This document shows, piece after piece, positions 384 to 9,063 of a stretch of 26,345 bases of DNA; position 1 is the stretch's first letter; each line of letters begins with the position of its first letter. A model generated the notes under the pieces. That model worked only from the letters and a program-made list of their open reading frames with translations. It did no database searches and had not been told where the DNA came from. Origin of the DNA: a virus; the IMG/VR virus record IMGVR_UViG_3300028666_000097, positions 1 through 26,345 of that record; one strand, written 5' to 3'. The position numbers and the translations under genes are program-made.

Positions 384-658
384 AATCCCGAACCGAAGAA
401 ATCAACGAACTCACGCGGCTGCTGGCCATGGCGAATCAGGAGTTGCAGGAGCTGCGGGCGGTGGTTTCTCAGTTCCCCAAGTTCGCCGACACGGGAAAAA
501 CTATCACACCTGATTCAACCTGCTGGTCATACCACGGAGGATCTGATCCGCCGCTCGATTACTTCTCTGGTAGGACGGCGATCATGTGCCCGCACGATTG
601 GTACTCCACCCGCTCGGCAGCCGAAGCGGCCAAACCTCAAGGAAAACCCCATGCCTAA
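380..658 (+). CDS. Hypothetical small phage protein (92 aa)
   Basis: Unrecognised 92-residue protein. The first 28 residues form a likely helix containing ELQELRAV, shared with the preceding gene. The remainder is rich in aromatic residues, Pro and Cys (a segment around residues 47-72 has two Cys and two His). AAAGGAG sits 7 bases before the ATG, a strong ribosome-binding site. The stop overlaps the terminase start by 8 bases. The two halves look unlike one another, as if a helical N-terminal module shared with the upstream gene were joined to a different C-terminal domain. No function can be assigned. Confidence 0.6.
   Translation: MKSRTEEINELTRLLAMANQELQELRAVVSQFPKFADTGKTITPDSTCWSYHGGSDPPLDYFSGRTAIMCPHDWYSTRSAAEAAKPQGKPHA
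438..463 (+). repeat. 26-base direct repeat, copy 2
   Basis: Second copy of the repeat at 199-224, with one mismatch, again in frame and encoding ELQELRAV near the N terminus of the 380-658 protein. Confidence 0.75.
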
Positions 659-3224
659 TTTCGACGAACTCACCCCTGACCAGCAATATGACATCGCCAA
701 GCGAAGCCATCCGGCCAGCTACGCGGAGTACGTCACATACGACGCCAGGACCAAGACCAGTGAATGGCGGGCGGCGAGGCACCTGGACTTCATTAGCAAG
801 AAGATTGTGCGCGGGATGGCCAAGGGGGGGCTGCGGCTCATAGTCAACGTCCCCGCTCGCCACGGAAAACTGTTGGCGCACAGCACGCCCATGCTCACGA
901 CCGATGGGTGGAAAACGCACGGGGACCTGCGGCCGGGGGATTGTGTCTACGGGTTGGATGGGAAGCCCACCAAAATCGTTGCGGTTGGGCAGGAGGACTG
1001 GGCTAGTATGGAAGTCGAGCTTGCCATCGGAGGAGGAAGCCAGACCACTACGAAGATCAAAACCCACCCCGACCACGAATGGGCCATCACAGCACGGTCG
1101 GGAAATGCAACGGCGCCGAAGAACGCCAATGGTACATGGACATATATTAGGGACACCCTCTGGCTGGCAGGCATGACGCCGTACGGCACCCCCAGAGGAA
1201 AGAAACGGGTGCTTAGGTCGGGAAAAACCCCCCGCTGCACATACCAAGTGCCCCAACGCTCGTGTTTGCAGTTCCCCTATCAGGAGCAGCCCCTTCATCC
1301 CTACTTCCTAGGGGTGTGGCTGGGCGACGGCAGGTCGTCTGGTGCGGACTTCTGCTACGCGGACAAAGATGAAGTGGTCCTGAGGGCAGTTGAGGAGTTG
1401 GGGTACTCGCACTCATGGTACTCCAAGCACAAGACTACCGGAGTGAATTATGTCGGTTTCAAGGACGTGAGGAAGCATCTGATCGACTTGCGGGTACTCA
1501 ATAACAAGCATATTCCTGCCGCCTATAAGTACGCGTCTCGCGACCAGAGGCTGGAGCTTTTGGCCGGTCTTGTGGACACCGATGGATATGTAGATAAGAC
1601 TGGGAGGGTGGTGTTTGTCACGGTAAGCGACCTGCTTCGGGACGACCTAATGGAATTGGTGCGTGGATTGGGGTGGAACGTGTTCAGTCACACAACTGCC
1701 CCAGCTTTAAGTACCAGCGGCATACAAGGCAAACTTCCAGTGCATTCAGTCACCTTCATACCTGGAGGGAAGGTGCCCACTAGGATTCCGAGAAAGGTTA
1801 TCGAGGAAGATCCTGAGTACGTGTTTAAGCGGTCAGGGTTCGTGTCTGCTGTTCCCTGCACTCCTGAGATGGGCAGGTGTATTCAGGTCGAGGCTGAGGA
1901 CGGCATTTATCTGGCAGGAAAGGAACTCATCCCCACCCATAACAGTATGCTTATATCCAAATGGACGCCGATCTGGTTTCTCGAAACTTTCCCGACAAAA
2001 CGTGTGGTGGTCTGCTCCTACGGCAGCAACTTGGCCGAGTACTGGGGCGCCGAGGCCCGCAACGAGATCCAAAAGAACAAACGCATCCATGTGAGCCTGC
2101 GGGAGGATAGCCAAGCGGTCGGGCAGTGGCGCACGCCGCAGGGCGGGGGCATGAAGGCCGAGGGTGTGGGTGGCAGTTTGCTGGGGTTTGGGTTTGACCT
2201 CGGCTTGATCGACGATCCGATCAAAAACTACGACGACGCGGTAAGTGAGGCGATCCAAGACACCCTCTGGAACTGGTTCCAGTACACCTTCCTGACCCGC
2301 AAGGAGCCAGGCGCCAACATCGTCATCCTGATGCACCGCTGGGCCACCAACGACTTTTGCGGCCGGCTCATGATGGAGGACAAGGATACGTGGGAGTGCA
2401 TCAAGCTGCCGTGCTTGGCCGATGTGGGCGATCCCCTTGGTCGCTCCCCCGGAGAGGCCCTGTGGCCGGAGCGGTGGCCCGCAGACTGCAAGGAGATCAA
2501 GGAGGCGCAGAAAAGCGTGGCATGGTGGCCGATGTTCCAGCAGAACCCCAAACTCGAAAACGAGTCGCGCGTTTACGACCATTTCACACAGGACGGCAAC
2601 CTTGACAAGAATACGGTACTGAAAAAAGGCCCCGATGAGGTGCTGGCCTTCACCATCGACTTCAACACCAACCCCGGCTCGCACGCGGAGATCTGCCAGT
2701 ATGACGCGCGGGCGGACATGTTCATCTTCCACGACGAGATCCATGGCCCCGGCTACCGCACGGAGCATGTGATGAAGGACTTCATCAAGTGGCTGGCGAA
2801 CGAGGGCCACCGGCCGGGGGCGTGCCCGTGGAAGCATGTGGCGATCTACGGCGACCGCAGCGGCAACAGCCCGACGACGGTGACGACGCAAACGGACTAC
2901 GGCCTGATCCAGAAGATGCTCAAGGAGGCGGGGGTGCCTTTTCGTATGTATATACCTATGAAAAATCCCTCGGTGAACGACCGGGTGTTGACGGTGAACA
3001 TGGCCCTGCGGGATTTGGAGGGTCGGGTGCATTTAAAGGTCAACCCCCGGTGCAAGCGACTGGTGGTGGACTTTGCAACCCAGCCGCGGGATGATGTGGG
3101 GCAGCCGGAGAAGGAGAAGGATCGAAAGCTGGGCCACGCGTCGGATGCGACTGGGTATATATGTTTTTGGCTACGTCCGGTGAACCGGATGGAGTTCAAG
3201 CCTCAACGCGTACTAGGTGGATGA
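651..3224 (+). CDS. terL: Terminase large subunit interrupted by an intein
   Basis: The DNA-packaging motor ATPase and headful nuclease, 857 codons of which 358 are an intein, leaving a 499-residue mature protein, normal for TerL. The ATPase domain shows a Walker A motif (VPARHGK, residues 67-73) that continues with Ser432 after the intein. Walker B is LIDD (519-522), with a motif III-like LMHRWATND around 560-567. The C-terminal RNase H-like nuclease domain shows the three expected acidic positions: Asp670 (FTIDF), Asp735 (YGDRSGN) and Asp832 (HASDATGY). The ATG has AAGGA upstream and overlaps the previous stop. The mature protein can hydrolyse ATP only if the intein is removed, because the P-loop is split. 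The stop overlaps the next gene as ATGA. No small-subunit gene is recognised beside it. Confidence 0.95.
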   Translation: MPNFDELTPDQQYDIAKRSHPASYAEYVTYDARTKTSEWRAARHLDFISKKIVRGMAKGGLRLIVNVPARHGKLLAHSTPMLTTDGWKTHGDLRPGDCVYGLDGKPTKIVAVGQEDWASMEVELAIGGGSQTTTKIKTHPDHEWAITARSGNATAPKNANGTWTYIRDTLWLAGMTPYGTPRGKKRVLRSGKTPRCTYQVPQRSCLQFPYQEQPLHPYFLGVWLGDGRSSGADFCYADKDEVVLRAVEELGYSHSWYSKHKTTGVNYVGFKDVRKHLIDLRVLNNKHIPAAYKYASRDQRLELLAGLVDTDGYVDKTGRVVFVTVSDLLRDDLMELVRGLGWNVFSHTTAPALSTSGIQGKLPVHSVTFIPGGKVPTRIPRKVIEEDPEYVFKRSGFVSAVPCTPEMGRCIQVEAEDGIYLAGKELIPTHNSMLISKWTPIWFLETFPTKRVVVCSYGSNLAEYWGAEARNEIQKNKRIHVSLREDSQAVGQWRTPQGGGMKAEGVGGSLLGFGFDLGLIDDPIKNYDDAVSEAIQDTLWNWFQYTFLTRKEPGANIVILMHRWATNDFCGRLMMEDKDTWECIKLPCLADVGDPLGRSPGEALWPERWPADCKEIKEAQKSVAWWPMFQQNPKLENESRVYDHFTQDGNLDKNTVLKKGPDEVLAFTIDFNTNPGSHAEICQYDARADMFIFHDEIHGPGYRTEHVMKDFIKWLANEGHRPGACPWKHVAIYGDRSGNSPTTVTTQTDYGLIQKMLKEAGVPFRMYIPMKNPSVNDRVLTVNMALRDLEGRVHLKVNPRCKRLVVDFATQPRDDVGQPEKEKDRKLGHASDATGYICFWLRPVNRMEFKPQRVLGG
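870..1943 (+). other. Class 3-type intein with LAGLIDADG endonuclease in TerL
   Basis: Protein-level insertion of 358 residues (74-431) inside the terminase P-loop, ending in the canonical THN followed by Ser432. Residue 1 of the intein is Leu (CTG at 870), not Cys or Ser. The splicing-domain residues match the class 3 signature: Trp144 two residues after block B His142, Cys410 at the block F position usually held by Asp (RCIQV), and Thr429 just before the penultimate His430. In class 3 inteins the block F Cys starts the reaction. A homing endonuclease sits inside, with motifs FLGVWLGDG (219-227) and LAGLVDTDG (304-312). The intein DNA reads visibly less GC-rich than the flanking exteins, which fits separate acquisition. 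Splicing is predicted from sequence, not shown. Confidence 0.9.
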
Positions 3225-3947: not shown

Positions 3948-3968
3948 TGGGCCTGCCGATTGCCCTTC

Positions 3969-5570
3969 ATGAACAACATCAAGGGCACACCTATCAATTT
4001 TGCCTTGAACCCAGAGATGCCTCGGGTGGTTCCGGGCGAGCCGCCTCCGACCGGGGACAGCACGGGGAAGCAGGCCGCCCAGTTCCAACCCAGCAACACG
4101 GCCGCGCTCGCGGGTGTCGTTGGGATCGCAGACCCGTGGGCACAAAACGCGTGGGGATGGAGGTCTGAAGCCACCGCCAACCTCCCCGGAGGCACCCCGG
4201 CGCCAGGCCTGTTCAGCAACTACAGCGTGAACGGCCTCCCCATTTCTTGGCCGGGGCAATATTCGTACTTCCGAAGAATCCTCAACGACCCCAGCGTCCG
4301 CTTCGTGCGCGCGATGGCCTTCGCCCCCGTCCTGACCACCAAATGGGTCGTGCAGGCGTCCAAGGACGCTCCCAAGGACGCCGCGGCCACCATCCAGACC
4401 ATGTTCGACGACCTGCGGCTCCAGTTCCTTGACGACGCCCTCCGCGGCGTGGACTACGGCTGGTGCGGCTTCGAGCAGTGCTTTGAGATGCTCAAGGACG
4501 GCCCCCACGCCGGCACCTTCTGGCTGACCAAGCTCAAGGCCCTAATGCACGACCTCACGAGCATCTACGTGGACGAGCACGGGGACTTCAACGGCTTCAA
4601 CAACAATGGGCAGCTCGTGTCCCCGGTCAAGACCTGCCTTTACACCCACGATGGGGAGTCTGGTAACCTCTATGGCCGCGGCCGGTGCTGGAACCTGCTG
4701 GAAGTGGTGCCGTGGTGGAGGGACGCCAATGAGGGCGCCGCACGCTACGACCGCAAGATCGCCGGGGTGTTCCTGGTCTGCCACTACCCGCCTGGCCAGA
4801 GCATCAACCGTGACGGGCACCTGACGGAGAACTACCAGATCGCCCAGACGATGCTTGACAGCATCGCCGCGGGCAAGCCCATCGCCGTGTGCAACGAATT
4901 CGCCGGGGAGATGGAGAACAACTTCCTCAACAACATCGGCATGGCTGACCGCACCCGCTGGAAGATCGAGATGTTGGAGGACAAGGGCAGCCGGCAGCCG
5001 GGGTTCAGTGACCGTCTCGCGTACCTTGACAGGCAGAAGGCCCGCGCGTACCTGGTCCCGGAGCGGAGCGCGTTTGAGGCCCAGAAATCAGGCTCCAAGG
5101 CCGACAGCGAATCCCACGGCGACATCATCCTGGTGCAAGCCGCGATCATCAACGAGCGGCTGACGAGCATCCTCAACGGCAAGGCCATTGACCCCAACAG
5201 CCCGGTGAACAACATCCTGCGAGTGAACTGGGGCGAGGCAGCGGTGGGGACGGTCAAGATCCTGCCCGACGCCATCCAAGAGGACATGAAGAAGTTCATG
5301 CGCGACATCACCATGCAGATCATTGGTGATGACCCTGTGACCGTCAACACCCTCAGCAACATCCAGCAGATCATGGCCAAGGCCGGGATGCCCCTGCCCA
5401 CAGACCCCATGAGTGACGAGGAACTGACCGTGGAACTGGAGGGCATTGTGGCCAAACGGGTCAAGGCCATGGGTCCAGTGGGCGGCGGCGGTGATGGCGG
5501 CAAGGAAACGATGTCGCGCATCCGTGAGGCCGTTATAAAACTCAATGGCAACGGACATACCGGCAACTGA
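3969..5570 (+). CDS. Portal protein (DUF935/Mu gp29-like)
   Basis: Predicted dodecameric ring at the capsid vertex through which DNA enters and leaves. The 533-residue length is typical. The segment YGRGRCWNLLEVVPWWRD (around residues 236-253) matches the G.G..R......WW pattern of DUF935 portals, and the protein sits directly between the terminase and the protease/scaffold gene, the usual place. A central helix-rich region and a Gly-rich C-terminal tail are visible. The start is uncertain: ATG 3969 is chosen, but an in-frame TTG at 3960 and ATG at 4017 also exist, and none has a clear Shine-Dalgarno site. The assignment rests on length, motif and order. Confidence 0.85.
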   Translation: MNNIKGTPINFALNPEMPRVVPGEPPPTGDSTGKQAAQFQPSNTAALAGVVGIADPWAQNAWGWRSEATANLPGGTPAPGLFSNYSVNGLPISWPGQYSYFRRILNDPSVRFVRAMAFAPVLTTKWVVQASKDAPKDAAATIQTMFDDLRLQFLDDALRGVDYGWCGFEQCFEMLKDGPHAGTFWLTKLKALMHDLTSIYVDEHGDFNGFNNNGQLVSPVKTCLYTHDGESGNLYGRGRCWNLLEVVPWWRDANEGAARYDRKIAGVFLVCHYPPGQSINRDGHLTENYQIAQTMLDSIAAGKPIAVCNEFAGEMENNFLNNIGMADRTRWKIEMLEDKGSRQPGFSDRLAYLDRQKARAYLVPERSAFEAQKSGSKADSESHGDIILVQAAIINERLTSILNGKAIDPNSPVNNILRVNWGEAAVGTVKILPDAIQEDMKKFMRDITMQIIGDDPVTVNTLSNIQQIMAKAGMPLPTDPMSDEELTVELEGIVAKRVKAMGPVGGGGDGGKETMSRIREAVIKLNGNGHTGN

Positions 5571-5676
5571 CGCGTGTTTTTGACCTCCGACAAGGGATTT
5601 GACCTTTTTCAACCCTAAAAACGGAATTTCCACTTTTTTGTAGTACGAAGTAGCACGTTACCTTTACGAGGACCTC
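5571..5676 (+). other. Intergenic gap before protease gene, possible promoter
   Basis: A 106-base AT-richer gap, one of the longest in the rightward block. It contains two TTGACC hexamers (5580-5585 and 5599-5604) that resemble -35 elements, but no convincing -10 box at 16-18 bases from either. GAGGA (5668-5672) is the ribosome-binding site for the next gene. A promoter for capsid genes is possible but weakly supported. Confidence 0.25.
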
Positions 5677-7002
5677 ATGAGTACCAGAATCCTGTTCAGC
5701 ACCCAAGGAACCGGCCTCGGTACTTTCACGAAGGCGTCGGGGGTCTACCGCAAGGACTTCATCCGTGAAGGCACCTTCATCATTCGCAATGGCAAATTGA
5801 AGTTCTCCGTGGACGCGAACCGGATCAAGAAGTGGGAGAAGCACTTCCAACTGTTCCGCGAACGGGGAATTTCTGTGCCCCTGACCGTGGACCACATCCA
5901 GGTGACACAGGACGGGAAACCCCTCCTGCGCAAGCTGACCCCCGGCATGGCCGAGGCCAAGCGCGGCGACGTGGTGAACATGTTCCGCGACGACTCCGGG
6001 CGTGGGATGTTCGACGTGACGCCCTCGGACGCGGACGCTGAGGCCCTCATGATGCGGTGCCCAGAGGTCAGCCTTGAGCTGGACCGCGACTACATTGACG
6101 CCCATGGCAACCATTACGACGAGGCCATTACCGCCATCACCTTGACGGCCAAGCCCGAAATTCCGGGCCAAATCATGGAATGGGAGCAGGTGGGGGGCAC
6201 GACCGCGGCCATTGCCGCCTGCCGTGATCCCCGAGACGAGGGCAGGGAGGTTCTCTGCCTGTCTGCCGAACCCTATGTAGAGTCCAACCAGGAGAGTGAT
6301 ATGGCTTCTATGAGCCCCAGTCTGCTTGCCCGAGCCCGTGCTGCCCTCAAAATGCACAACGATCCCGAGGATGAGGTCCATTCGAAGATGGTGGATCACA
6401 TGGAACACTGCTCCCGCGGCAGCAGCTATTTGAGCCGCGAAGAAGCGGACAAGGCCATCGCCGACGCCGTTACCGCCGCCACGACCAAGGCCGTCGCGGA
6501 AACCACCGAGAAACTCGCCAAGGAGTCCTCGGACAAGGTGCTGAGCCTGTCCAAGGAACTTGAACAGGCCAAGACCGGCACGCGGATGTTGACCATCGCG
6601 GAGCTGGCGAAGGATGTGGACGAAGATGCTCTGGAGATGGCGGCCGGGGCCATCAAGACCCGCATTGATGCCCTCGGCGCCAAAGCCACGCCCGCGCAGA
6701 AGAAAATGCTCATGAGCAAGCTCGTGGGCGAGGAGGGCAAACGTAACGTCCTGGCCCTGAGCAAGAAAACAGCCACCAAGGTCGGGCTCGACGGCATCCT
6801 CTCGGACATGGTATTGAGCATCTTCGAGGCCGGCGACCCGGTGGAGATGGCCAAACTGCTCAAGGAAGAGTCCGGCCACCAGCGCACGGTCCTCAGCCGC
6901 GAAACCAACCCTGAAGGCACGCCATCGGAATGCGATGCGGCCACGACCCAGAAAATGATCGACAACGCGAACGGCCGCGTGGCCGCCACACTCGTGCTGT
7001 AA
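5677..7002 (+). CDS. Capsid maturation protease/scaffold fusion (Mu I-like)
   Basis: A 441-residue protein with an N-terminal protease domain and a helical scaffold domain, as in Mu protein I/Z. The protease half shows PLTVDH (His73), a motif FDVTP, then CPEVSLEL (Ser132) and ITLTAKPEIPG (151-164), which match the catalytic His, Ser and closing strand of this herpesvirus-like serine protease family. From about residue 235 the protein is Ala/Glu/Lys-rich and helical, as expected for a scaffold that is degraded after assembly. GAGGA precedes the ATG. An internal start with its own ribosome-binding site gives the scaffold alone. It lies just upstream of the decoration and major capsid genes. Confidence 0.85.
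   Translation: MSTRILFSTQGTGLGTFTKASGVYRKDFIREGTFIIRNGKLKFSVDANRIKKWEKHFQLFRERGISVPLTVDHIQVTQDGKPLLRKLTPGMAEAKRGDVVNMFRDDSGRGMFDVTPSDADAEALMMRCPEVSLELDRDYIDAHGNHYDEAITAITLTAKPEIPGQIMEWEQVGGTTAAIAACRDPRDEGREVLCLSAEPYVESNQESDMASMSPSLLARARAALKMHNDPEDEVHSKMVDHMEHCSRGSSYLSREEADKAIADAVTAATTKAVAETTEKLAKESSDKVLSLSKELEQAKTGTRMLTIAELAKDVDEDALEMAAGAIKTRIDALGAKATPAQKKMLMSKLVGEEGKRNVLALSKKTATKVGLDGILSDMVLSIFEAGDPVEMAKLLKEESGHQRTVLSRETNPEGTPSECDAATTQKMIDNANGRVAATLVL
6290..6294 (+). promoter_or_regulatory. Internal ribosome-binding site for scaffold
   Basis: AGGAG lies 6 bases before an in-frame ATG at 6301 in the middle of the protease/scaffold gene. This is as good as the sites in front of whole genes here, and it sits at the boundary between the protease and scaffold halves. 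Confidence 0.65.
6301..7002 (+). CDS. Nested scaffold protein from internal start
   Basis: In-frame product of 233 residues, starting at Met209 of the protease/scaffold protein. It would contain only the helical scaffold region, which has a coiled-coil-like stretch after the SREEADKAIADAVTAAT segment. Nested expression of protease and scaffold from one frame is established for Mu (I/Z) and lambda (C/Nu3), so the arrangement is expected. The evidence here is the AGGAG site and its placement at the domain boundary. Expression has not been shown. Confidence 0.65.
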   Translation: MASMSPSLLARARAALKMHNDPEDEVHSKMVDHMEHCSRGSSYLSREEADKAIADAVTAATTKAVAETTEKLAKESSDKVLSLSKELEQAKTGTRMLTIAELAKDVDEDALEMAAGAIKTRIDALGAKATPAQKKMLMSKLVGEEGKRNVLALSKKTATKVGLDGILSDMVLSIFEAGDPVEMAKLLKEESGHQRTVLSRETNPEGTPSECDAATTQKMIDNANGRVAATLVL

Positions 7003-7074
7003 CGGCGCACTGCCGATGGCTTTTTGAACCAAGCGGGCGTCTTGCCCAGATGAGTCCTCCCAAGGAGATCGAAA

Positions 7075-7830
7075 ATGTCTCAATTTCCTGTCAGCCAACC
7101 TGGGTTCGGTCCCGGATCTCTGACCCTGACCCCCCGCATGTTGTTCATCATGGACACCTCGGCGGGCGATTTCCTGCCGCAAGGCCGGTGCATCGACGGG
7201 TACAACACCCGTGACCCCGACAACGGTGCCGTGAACGTCGCCGAACTTCGCCCCGGCTTGGTCCTCGGCAAGGTCACTTCCGCCACCACCGGTGGCAACG
7301 CGACGGCTCCCATCGTGGGCCAGTATGCGGCCTCCATCGTCGGCACATTGACCAACGCCATCACCAACGCCACCACGCAGACCTCCATCGTCACGACCAA
7401 CTATTCGGGCACGGAACTCGTGCGGCGCGTCGGCACCTCCGGCACTTTGGTCCTGACGGGTCCCCCGACCACCCTCGGCACTGTGGCCACCTATTCGGGT
7501 GCCTACTCGGCCGTCGCCATTGGCACCACGACCTCCACTGTGACCCTGACGGCGCCGGGCACCGCGTTCATCGCGGGCACTTGGATCGGCGTGCTGGACG
7601 GCAGCCACATCCCCACCACGGTTCTCTGCGGCGACCTGTTCCCGGTGCGCGTGACCGACATCAACGGCAACAGCATGGCGAACGTGCCCCTGCGGCTCAT
7701 CCCGATCACCAACAAGCCGTTCAAGACGGCCAACATCATCAACTACAACAGCGCGAACTCCTTGGGGGCCTACCTCAAGACCAAGATGCGCGTTGTGGTC
7801 CCCGGCTTCACTTTTGACGACGACTTTTAA
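7075..7830 (+). CDS. Candidate head decoration protein
   Basis: A 251-residue protein between the scaffold and major capsid genes, the usual place of lambda D-like decoration (cement) proteins. A short motif RPGLVLGKVTSA (around residues 59-70) resembles the G..LGK.T strand found in that family. The middle part (residues 70-180) is rich in Thr, Gly, Ala and Val, like a beta-sandwich insertion, so the protein is about twice the length of lambda gpD. AAGGAG sits 7 bases before the ATG. An alternative is a capsid-surface fibre. The position makes a virion role likely. Confidence 0.6.
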   Translation: MSQFPVSQPGFGPGSLTLTPRMLFIMDTSAGDFLPQGRCIDGYNTRDPDNGAVNVAELRPGLVLGKVTSATTGGNATAPIVGQYAASIVGTLTNAITNATTQTSIVTTNYSGTELVRRVGTSGTLVLTGPPTTLGTVATYSGAYSAVAIGTTTSTVTLTAPGTAFIAGTWIGVLDGSHIPTTVLCGDLFPVRVTDINGNSMANVPLRLIPITNKPFKTANIINYNSANSLGAYLKTKMRVVVPGFTFDDDF

Positions 7831-7831
7831 C

Positions 7832-7850
7832 AGCGGGGTGTGACCCCGCT
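7832..7850 (+). other. Hairpin between decoration and capsid genes
   Basis: A perfect 8-base stem, AGCGGGGT pairing with ACCCCGCT around a GTG loop, directly after the decoration stop. There is no T-run after it, so it is not a standard terminator. It could protect or process the mRNA upstream of the highly expressed capsid gene. Confidence 0.6.
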
Positions 7851-7905
7851 CCTTGATCTGTAATTTCGACCCTTTCCGGTCATCCCACTGTCGGAGAACC
7901 CCAAA

Positions 7906-9003
7906 ATGGCAACTCTTGAACAAATCCTGCAATTCCGCAACCTTACCGGCGTCATTCGCGCGGTCAAAAGCGGCATCCCGCAGATCGCCCCCGACGACTT
8001 CATGAAGCCGGGTCGCCAGTTCCCCGGCAACCGCGGCGAATACTTCCGCATCACCGGCACCCGCCAAACGGCGCGGTCGGTGCAGTACGGCTCTCCGGCC
8101 GTGCGGCGTGACCTGCGCAACGTGGACAACATCCCGTTCACCGCCTTCCACACCTTTGAGTCCCAGCAATGGCCCATGGCCCTTATGATCGCCCTCACCA
8201 AGATGACCTCCCTTGACCGGGACCAGAAGGGTCAGGAACAGGCCGAGTACCAGACCGCCGAGTTCAAGCGCTTCTTCTCCAACCTCCGCATCGCCACGTC
8301 TCTCCAGGCACTGTTCCAGGGCAAGGTCTACTTCGACAGCACTGGCAACCTCGCCGTGGTGGACAACGCCACCGCCGGCGGCACCACGGTCAATTACAAC
8401 CTCCCGACCAACAACGTGAATTTCACCGCAAGCTGCTCGTCCACCAGCGTCAACTGGAACAACGCCACGGCGACGATCATGACCGACCTGCTCCAGATCC
8501 AGACCAACTCCGTCAAGCTCACCGGCTACGAACTGACCCACTGCTTCTACGACGACACCGTGCCTGGCTACATCGGCAACAACACCAACGCCCAGCAGTA
8601 CCTCAAACTCAACCCCGCGATGAATCAGCAATACCTGACCCAGAATGTGATCCCGGACGGCTTCGGCGGCATCAAAAAGTGGATTCCGGCCGGCCGCGCG
8701 TTCTTCAACGACCAGAACGGCACCAACCAGAAACTGCTCACGAACAACGGCGTCGTCTTTACGCCCGACCCCTCGCCGGAATGGTGGGAGATCTTTGAGG
8801 GCTCCTACCTGGTGCCCAACTCCGTCACGCCGGTCATCGGCGGCGACTCCAGCATCATCAGCGCCAACAGCACCGAAGTCTTTGGCATGTTCGGCTACGG
8901 CGTCCTGGCCCTCAACCCCTTCATGGTTGAGCAGTTTGCCGGGGATACGTTCTTCCCGGCCATCAAGGTGCCGGGTTGCGTGTACTCCTTCCCGGTTGCC
9001 TAA
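7906..9003 (+). CDS. Major capsid protein (lambda E-like/HK97 fold)
   Basis: A 365-residue protein expected to form the icosahedral shell. The N-terminal part has the lambda E-like arrangement: a helical start (ATLEQILQF), GRQFPGNRGEYFRI, then SVQYGSPAVRRDLRNVDN and a segment of strands and helix ending near residue 125. The last third contains WEIFEGSYLVPN and a compact C terminus. It is preceded by the scaffold and decoration genes and followed by a strong terminator, all usual for this gene. GGAGA before the ATG supports the start. No long propeptide is visible, so processing would act mainly on the scaffold. Confidence 0.85.
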   Translation: MATLEQILQFRNLTGVIRAVKSGIPQIAPDDFMKPGRQFPGNRGEYFRITGTRQTARSVQYGSPAVRRDLRNVDNIPFTAFHTFESQQWPMALMIALTKMTSLDRDQKGQEQAEYQTAEFKRFFSNLRIATSLQALFQGKVYFDSTGNLAVVDNATAGGTTVNYNLPTNNVNFTASCSSTSVNWNNATATIMTDLLQIQTNSVKLTGYELTHCFYDDTVPGYIGNNTNAQQYLKLNPAMNQQYLTQNVIPDGFGGIKKWIPAGRAFFNDQNGTNQKLLTNNGVVFTPDPSPEWWEIFEGSYLVPNSVTPVIGGDSSIISANSTEVFGMFGYGVLALNPFMVEQFAGDTFFPAIKVPGCVYSFPVA

Positions 9004-9026
9004 GCCGCCCTCCAAGTTGCATGAAC

Positions 9027-9063
9027 AGGTGCCCGCCCCTCTCCGGGCGGGCACCTCTTTTTA
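9027..9063 (+). terminator. Strong intrinsic terminator after capsid gene
   Basis: A perfect 12-base stem (AGGTGCCCGCCC at 9027-9038 with GGGCGGGCACCT at 9045-9056), a 6-base loop and five Ts at 9058-9062. It lies between the capsid stop and the connector gene, so it likely reduces expression of downstream tail genes relative to capsid protein. Confidence 0.92.

Follow-up and report, generated by a model that had tools for sequence, protein, structure and literature searches.

The TerL gene of the viral record analysed here, whose full 26,345 bases we call the window, appears to carry within its P-loop codons a mobile class 3-type intein that would be excised by the block F pathway and spread through LAGLIDADG homing, a reading to which, on sequence comparison and a structural model, we give a probability of roughly 0.95. 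That a class 3-type intein lies inside the TerL Walker A motif is well supported, since the assignment agrees with every sequence and structure test that was run. The insertion point is between K73 and S432, splitting the motif ARHGK/S between its invariant Lys and Ser (the slash marks the insertion), a site of the TerL1-a type (Lys/Ser or Lys/Thr), and joining the exteins gives a computed TerL of 499 aa. The features to which we refer are the following.

651–3224, + strand: TerL ORF, 857 aa, frame open throughout, stop codon at 3222–3224.
651–869, + strand: N-extein (TerL residues 1–73), ending ...VPARHGK; phrog TerL families, and alignment across the junction with intein-free TerLs.
870–1943, + strand: putative class 3-type intein, HINT splicing domain plus LAGLIDADG homing endonuclease, 358 aa (L74–N431).
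870–911, + strand: block A, LLAHSTPMLTTDGW; residue 1 is Leu, not Cys/Ser.
1074–1082, + strand: block B, in THPDHEWAI, with His H69 (B:10) at 1074–1076 and Trp W71 (B:12) at 1080–1082; invariant in alignments A1 and A3.
1305–1331, + strand: LAGLIDADG motif 1, FLGVWLGDG, predicted catalytic Asp D153 (intein numbering); G-D-G invariant in A3, fold match to PI-SceI.
1557–1586, + strand: LAGLIDADG motif 2, LLAGLVDTDG, predicted catalytic Asp D238 (intein numbering); Pfam, and phmmer to PI-SceI.
1878–1880, + strand: block F:4 Cys C337 (TerL C410), predicted initiating nucleophile; 6rix alignment and A1.
1935–1943, + strand: block G THN, i.e. Thr356 (G:5), His357 and Asn358, the Asn cyclisation end; 6rix alignment and A1.
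1944–3221, + strand: C-extein, first residue Ser+1 (the Walker A Ser), SMLISKWTPIWFL...; phrog_38 and junction alignments.
3960–5570: Mu-type portal, downstream of TerL; Portal_Mu E 5e-10.
7906–9003: E-type major capsid protein, downstream of TerL; E 1e-5.

In TerL numbering the block B His and Trp are H142 and W144, the Trp lying two residues past the His, and block G reads T429-H430-N431, followed by S432 (+1). An earlier note on this DNA had given the limits of the 358-aa intein, its K73/S432 flanks and the 499-aa joined product, together with residues Leu1, H142, W144, C410, T429, H430 and N431, and every one of these was reproduced; the observation lies far beyond chance.

Class 3 inteins are defined by Trp B:12, Cys F:4 and Thr G:5 (PMC5222942; PMC7891396). 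An HMM built from about 165 class 3 relatives with the window sequence left out (a jackknife) gave one match to the 857-aa protein, over residues 75–431 at 309 bits (E ~1e-91, Z = 100,000), and this match takes in the whole of blocks A, B, F and G. In alignment A1, of eight terminase inteins, seven of them from isolated phages and the eighth that of the window, H69, W71, C337, T356 and N358 do not vary. The C-terminal 24 residues of the window intein (335–358) pair one-to-one with residues 122–145 of the mycobacterial DnaB intein MchDnaB1 (6rix), so that C337 falls on Cys124 and T356 on Thr143, both of which belong to the named catalytic triad of that protein (PMC7664689). The Trp-Cys-Thr set that the earlier note had proposed is borne out by A1, the 6rix alignment and the jackknife HMM, and alignment of blocks A, B, F and G with class 3 inteins puts C410 inside block F and W144 inside block B.

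The predicted fold leads to the same assignment. An AlphaFold2 model of the intein, computed from the window sequence and 21 relatives from viral contigs, has a mean pLDDT of 91.6 and a pTM of 0.89; in a Foldseek search of the PDB, PI-SceI structures came top (TMq about 0.74–0.75), and 6riy and 6bs8, which are class 3 DnaB inteins, were matched at TMt 0.81–0.82. Both LAGLIDADG motifs are intact, with their acids present (WLGDG, LVDTDG), and Pfam LAGLIDADG_3 matches over 225–268 (E 3.5e-6). Pfam PF14890 (Intein_splicing) has no match in the window, so the intein call rests on the family alignment and the fold; apart from LAGLIDADG, Pfam and NCBIfam gave just weak terminase matches and a single weak one to an intein protein.

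The identity of the host protein and the exact junction come from the exteins. phrog_38 matches the C-extein at E 1.8e-43, beginning at residue 432, and further TerL PHROGs match too. When the spliced exteins are aligned with intein-free TerLs from Streptomyces phage ZL12 and a viral contig (L011), the alignment is gapless at the junction, where both have RHGKS and the sequence reads PPRHGKSQRASRWGPLWYL in ZL12 and PPRHGKSWMVSKWTPIWFL in L011; the claim that the intein splits the terminase Walker A motif holds.

The portal and major capsid protein downstream of TerL mark the region as the packaging end of a tailed-phage structural module. The 26,345-base record contains the intein only once, and searches across the window for RNA families, tRNAs and tandem repeats found none. 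Antisense ORFs over the intein (582–1298 and 1833–3032) are unsupported and resemble shadow frames cast by GC-rich coding sequence. A further antisense open frame, of 1170 codons, lies opposite the portal-capsid region (5542–9054, − strand) and is probably a shadow of high sense-strand GC3.

In the proposed mechanism, the TerL precursor would be unable to build its ATP site. C410 (F:4), aided by H142, W144 and T429, would attack the K73–L74 bond to give a branched thioester, from which the acyl group would pass to S432 (+1) as an ester; N431 would cyclise with the help of H430, releasing the intein, and an acyl shift would link GK to S, yielding the active 499-aa TerL. The LAGLIDADG endonuclease would drive homing into intein-free P-loop alleles, and the catalytic conservation of the target would shield the intein against loss. 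We infer splicing, the order of steps and endonuclease activity by homology. The strongest support for splicing is that the terminase P-loop in the record would be unusable without it, together with the activity of Baka TerL1-b, a class 3-like intein that splices and cuts the empty gene (PMC5050341); TerL1-a and TerL1-b are P-loop inteins of mycobacteriophages catalogued by Kelley et al. 2016 (PMC5050341).

Two other readings have to be weighed against this one. Ser+1 might attack the N-terminal junction directly, as in a class 2-like intein, with C410 merely structural; the non-nucleophilic residue 1, as in class 2, and the presence of a +1 nucleophile would suit such a route, but the W-C-T set is complete and invariant in A1, and in studied class 3 inteins changing the F:4 Cys to Ala abolishes splicing, the +1 residue being no substitute (PMC5222942), which makes this reading very improbable. 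Slimmer still is the chance of a decayed intein, dead for splicing, for although its closest relatives are distant and its activity is a prediction, all 857 codons are open, the splicing and endonuclease residues are all intact, and the intein sits in the single TerL Walker A loop of the record, so that TerL would be dead unless spliced. Arth_1007 of Arthrobacter sp. FB24 is reported to be splicing-dead and to have no real host protein (PMC3196547), whereas the window intein sits in the Walker A loop of TerL. For the mobile class 3-type intein, a GC3 of 0.66 against 0.77–0.80 in the exteins is consistent with acquisition from elsewhere.

Considering how widespread such elements are, the earlier note had the class 3 intein in the TerL Walker A motif right and its rarity wrong. 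Class 3 inteins were there called rare, whereas a 2020 survey counted 1701 of them, 82.5% with LAGLIDADG motifs (PMC7891396); a terminase P-loop example was taken to be unusual, whereas mycobacteriophage cases are known (PMC5050341) and the same site is occupied in many phages. With the intein as query, tblastn matched 698 phage records, 450 of which cover at least 80% of the query. In viral contigs the single intein sequence retrieved no relatives, which emerged with alignment A1 as query; searching viral and genome contigs for the family gave 160 loci, plus 80 from a later, partly overlapping search. Nearly all of the 217 distinct relatives extracted keep H-W-C-T-H-N, while residue 1 is Ala in 106, Leu in 51, Gln in 28 and otherwise various (including E), with Cys occurring once. 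The GK/intein/S site recurs in dozens of viral contigs and, among isolates, in phages of Gordonia, Bacteroides and Porphyromonas. On the tree, the window intein falls in a clade of 41 rows (SH-aLRT 98) made up almost wholly of inteins at GK/S or GK/T sites; its nearest relatives are 47–50% identical, and no phage record was more than 60% identical. Judged by its sequence, the window intein is a diverged, apparently intact member of a known terminase P-loop class 3 family, and it fits the pattern by which such elements occupy the sites hardest to lose from.

Among these relatives, the intein in the TerL of Acidovorax phage ACF1 (L007) combines a Cys at residue 1 with the complete W-C-T set, and so has the nucleophiles of class 1 and of class 3 together. 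A second intein, with a class 1-like end VHN/T, lies further downstream in the ATPase domain of two related terminases, after ...VCVVMM in L011 (3800–6304) and after ...RIVIVM in L014 (ORF from nt 944); the P-loop of L011 is empty and L014 carries both inteins.

Perhaps of more consequence than the window intein itself is a side finding among its relatives, which may outweigh the original target. Seven distinct terminase P-loop inteins (L014:1157–2164, L015:2498–3502, L017:2495–3529, L172, L173, L200 and L256) have Ser in place of the block F nucleophile and retain the Trp and THN. All seven have Thr at +1, against 5 of the 88 rows that carry Cys in the terminase tree (Fisher p 7e-8, uncorrected for kinship and representing only two or three independent contrasts), a suggestive association of Ser block F with Thr+1. 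The Cys/Ser exchange requires three changes on the tree, at least two of them forced by well-supported branches, and the grouping of all Ser inteins in one clade is rejected (p-AU 0.0025); by this phylogeny, Ser block F would have arisen at least twice independently. Three viral contigs from different datasets (L174–L176) contain the L015 intein again, sharing its sequence features and scoring identically, a recurrence that speaks against a base-calling error. Five of the seven have Gln, Ala or Leu as residue 1 and therefore no class 1 nucleophile; in L014 and L200 this residue is Ser. A search by coded Ser at block F returned eight contigs with TCN and found no block F inteins with AGY-coded Ser. 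The window intein groups with L012, L013 and L236, adjoining the Ser clade of L014, L015, L172 and L173 (bootstrap/SH-aLRT 92/89, not starred).

The 2020 survey demanded a block F Cys (PMC7891396), so the Ser inteins would have been left out of it, and a literature search, not extending to Tori and Perler 2011, found nothing on class 3 inteins with Ser at block F. In experiments on other inteins, Ser proved no substitute for a catalytic Cys (PMC5222942). The Ser-bearing W-S-T (WST) inteins may represent a form of class 3 splicing, all-oxoester and so far undescribed, and may either use Ser F:4 or rely on direct attack by Thr+1. We put at even odds the fuller proposal that terminase P-loop inteins repeatedly trade Cys for Ser at block F, in combination with Thr+1, giving a natural all-oxoester ‘WST’ form of class 3 missed by Cys-defined surveys. 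Substitution experiments on Cys nucleophiles say that an oxygen-ester class 3 route is difficult, and the WST inteins provide a natural experiment on whether oxygen esters can sustain it.

Occupied and empty forms of the P-loop site can also be compared directly in Streptomyces. With its class 3 intein removed, the TerL of one Streptomyces record, present in two collections (L074/L138), is 89% identical to that of ZL12 (L259) over 621 nt and gapless at the junction codon. The two make a natural homing pair, one filled and one empty, and their sequences point to a recent gain or loss at the P-loop site in relatives, as distinct from the phage of the window; the L074/L138 intein lies on a different branch of the family.

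Compared with known systems, the HINT fold of the window intein is common to the mycobacterial DnaB mini-inteins (6bs8 from M. smegmatis; 6rix/6riy, MchDnaB1), and H65, W67, C124 and T143 of MchDnaB1 correspond to its catalytic residues; the mini-inteins are without an endonuclease domain and reside in a replicative helicase, whereas the window intein has LAGLIDADG and resides in TerL. PI-SceI, the yeast VMA1 intein, has the same architecture of HINT plus double LAGLIDADG at 17% identity, and splices by class 1 chemistry. Among isolated phages, Gordonia phages Ali17, ViaConlectus and APunk and Bacteroides phage B124-14 have exactly the window arrangement, GK/...THN/S with W-C-T and LAGLIDADG, and Porphyromonas phage005b has a TerL P-loop intein with the same host protein and location. 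The Baka gp6 intein starts one residue later than that of the window, GKG/D...THN/S (read from Redno2), and Baka TerL1-b is about 34% identical to the window intein, with the same residues (H-L-W, Cys in RCIQVDAEDGIYLVGRSFIPTHN, THN). The TerL P-loop inteins of isolated phages share only 33–40% identity with that of the window, whose host TerL and phage are distant from known isolates. The closest systems found are two TerL inteins from IMG/VR viral contigs (L012 and L013), which are 49–50% identical in A3 and share GK/...THN/S, W-C-T and LAGLIDADG with the window intein, in TerLs and contigs that differ from those of the window.
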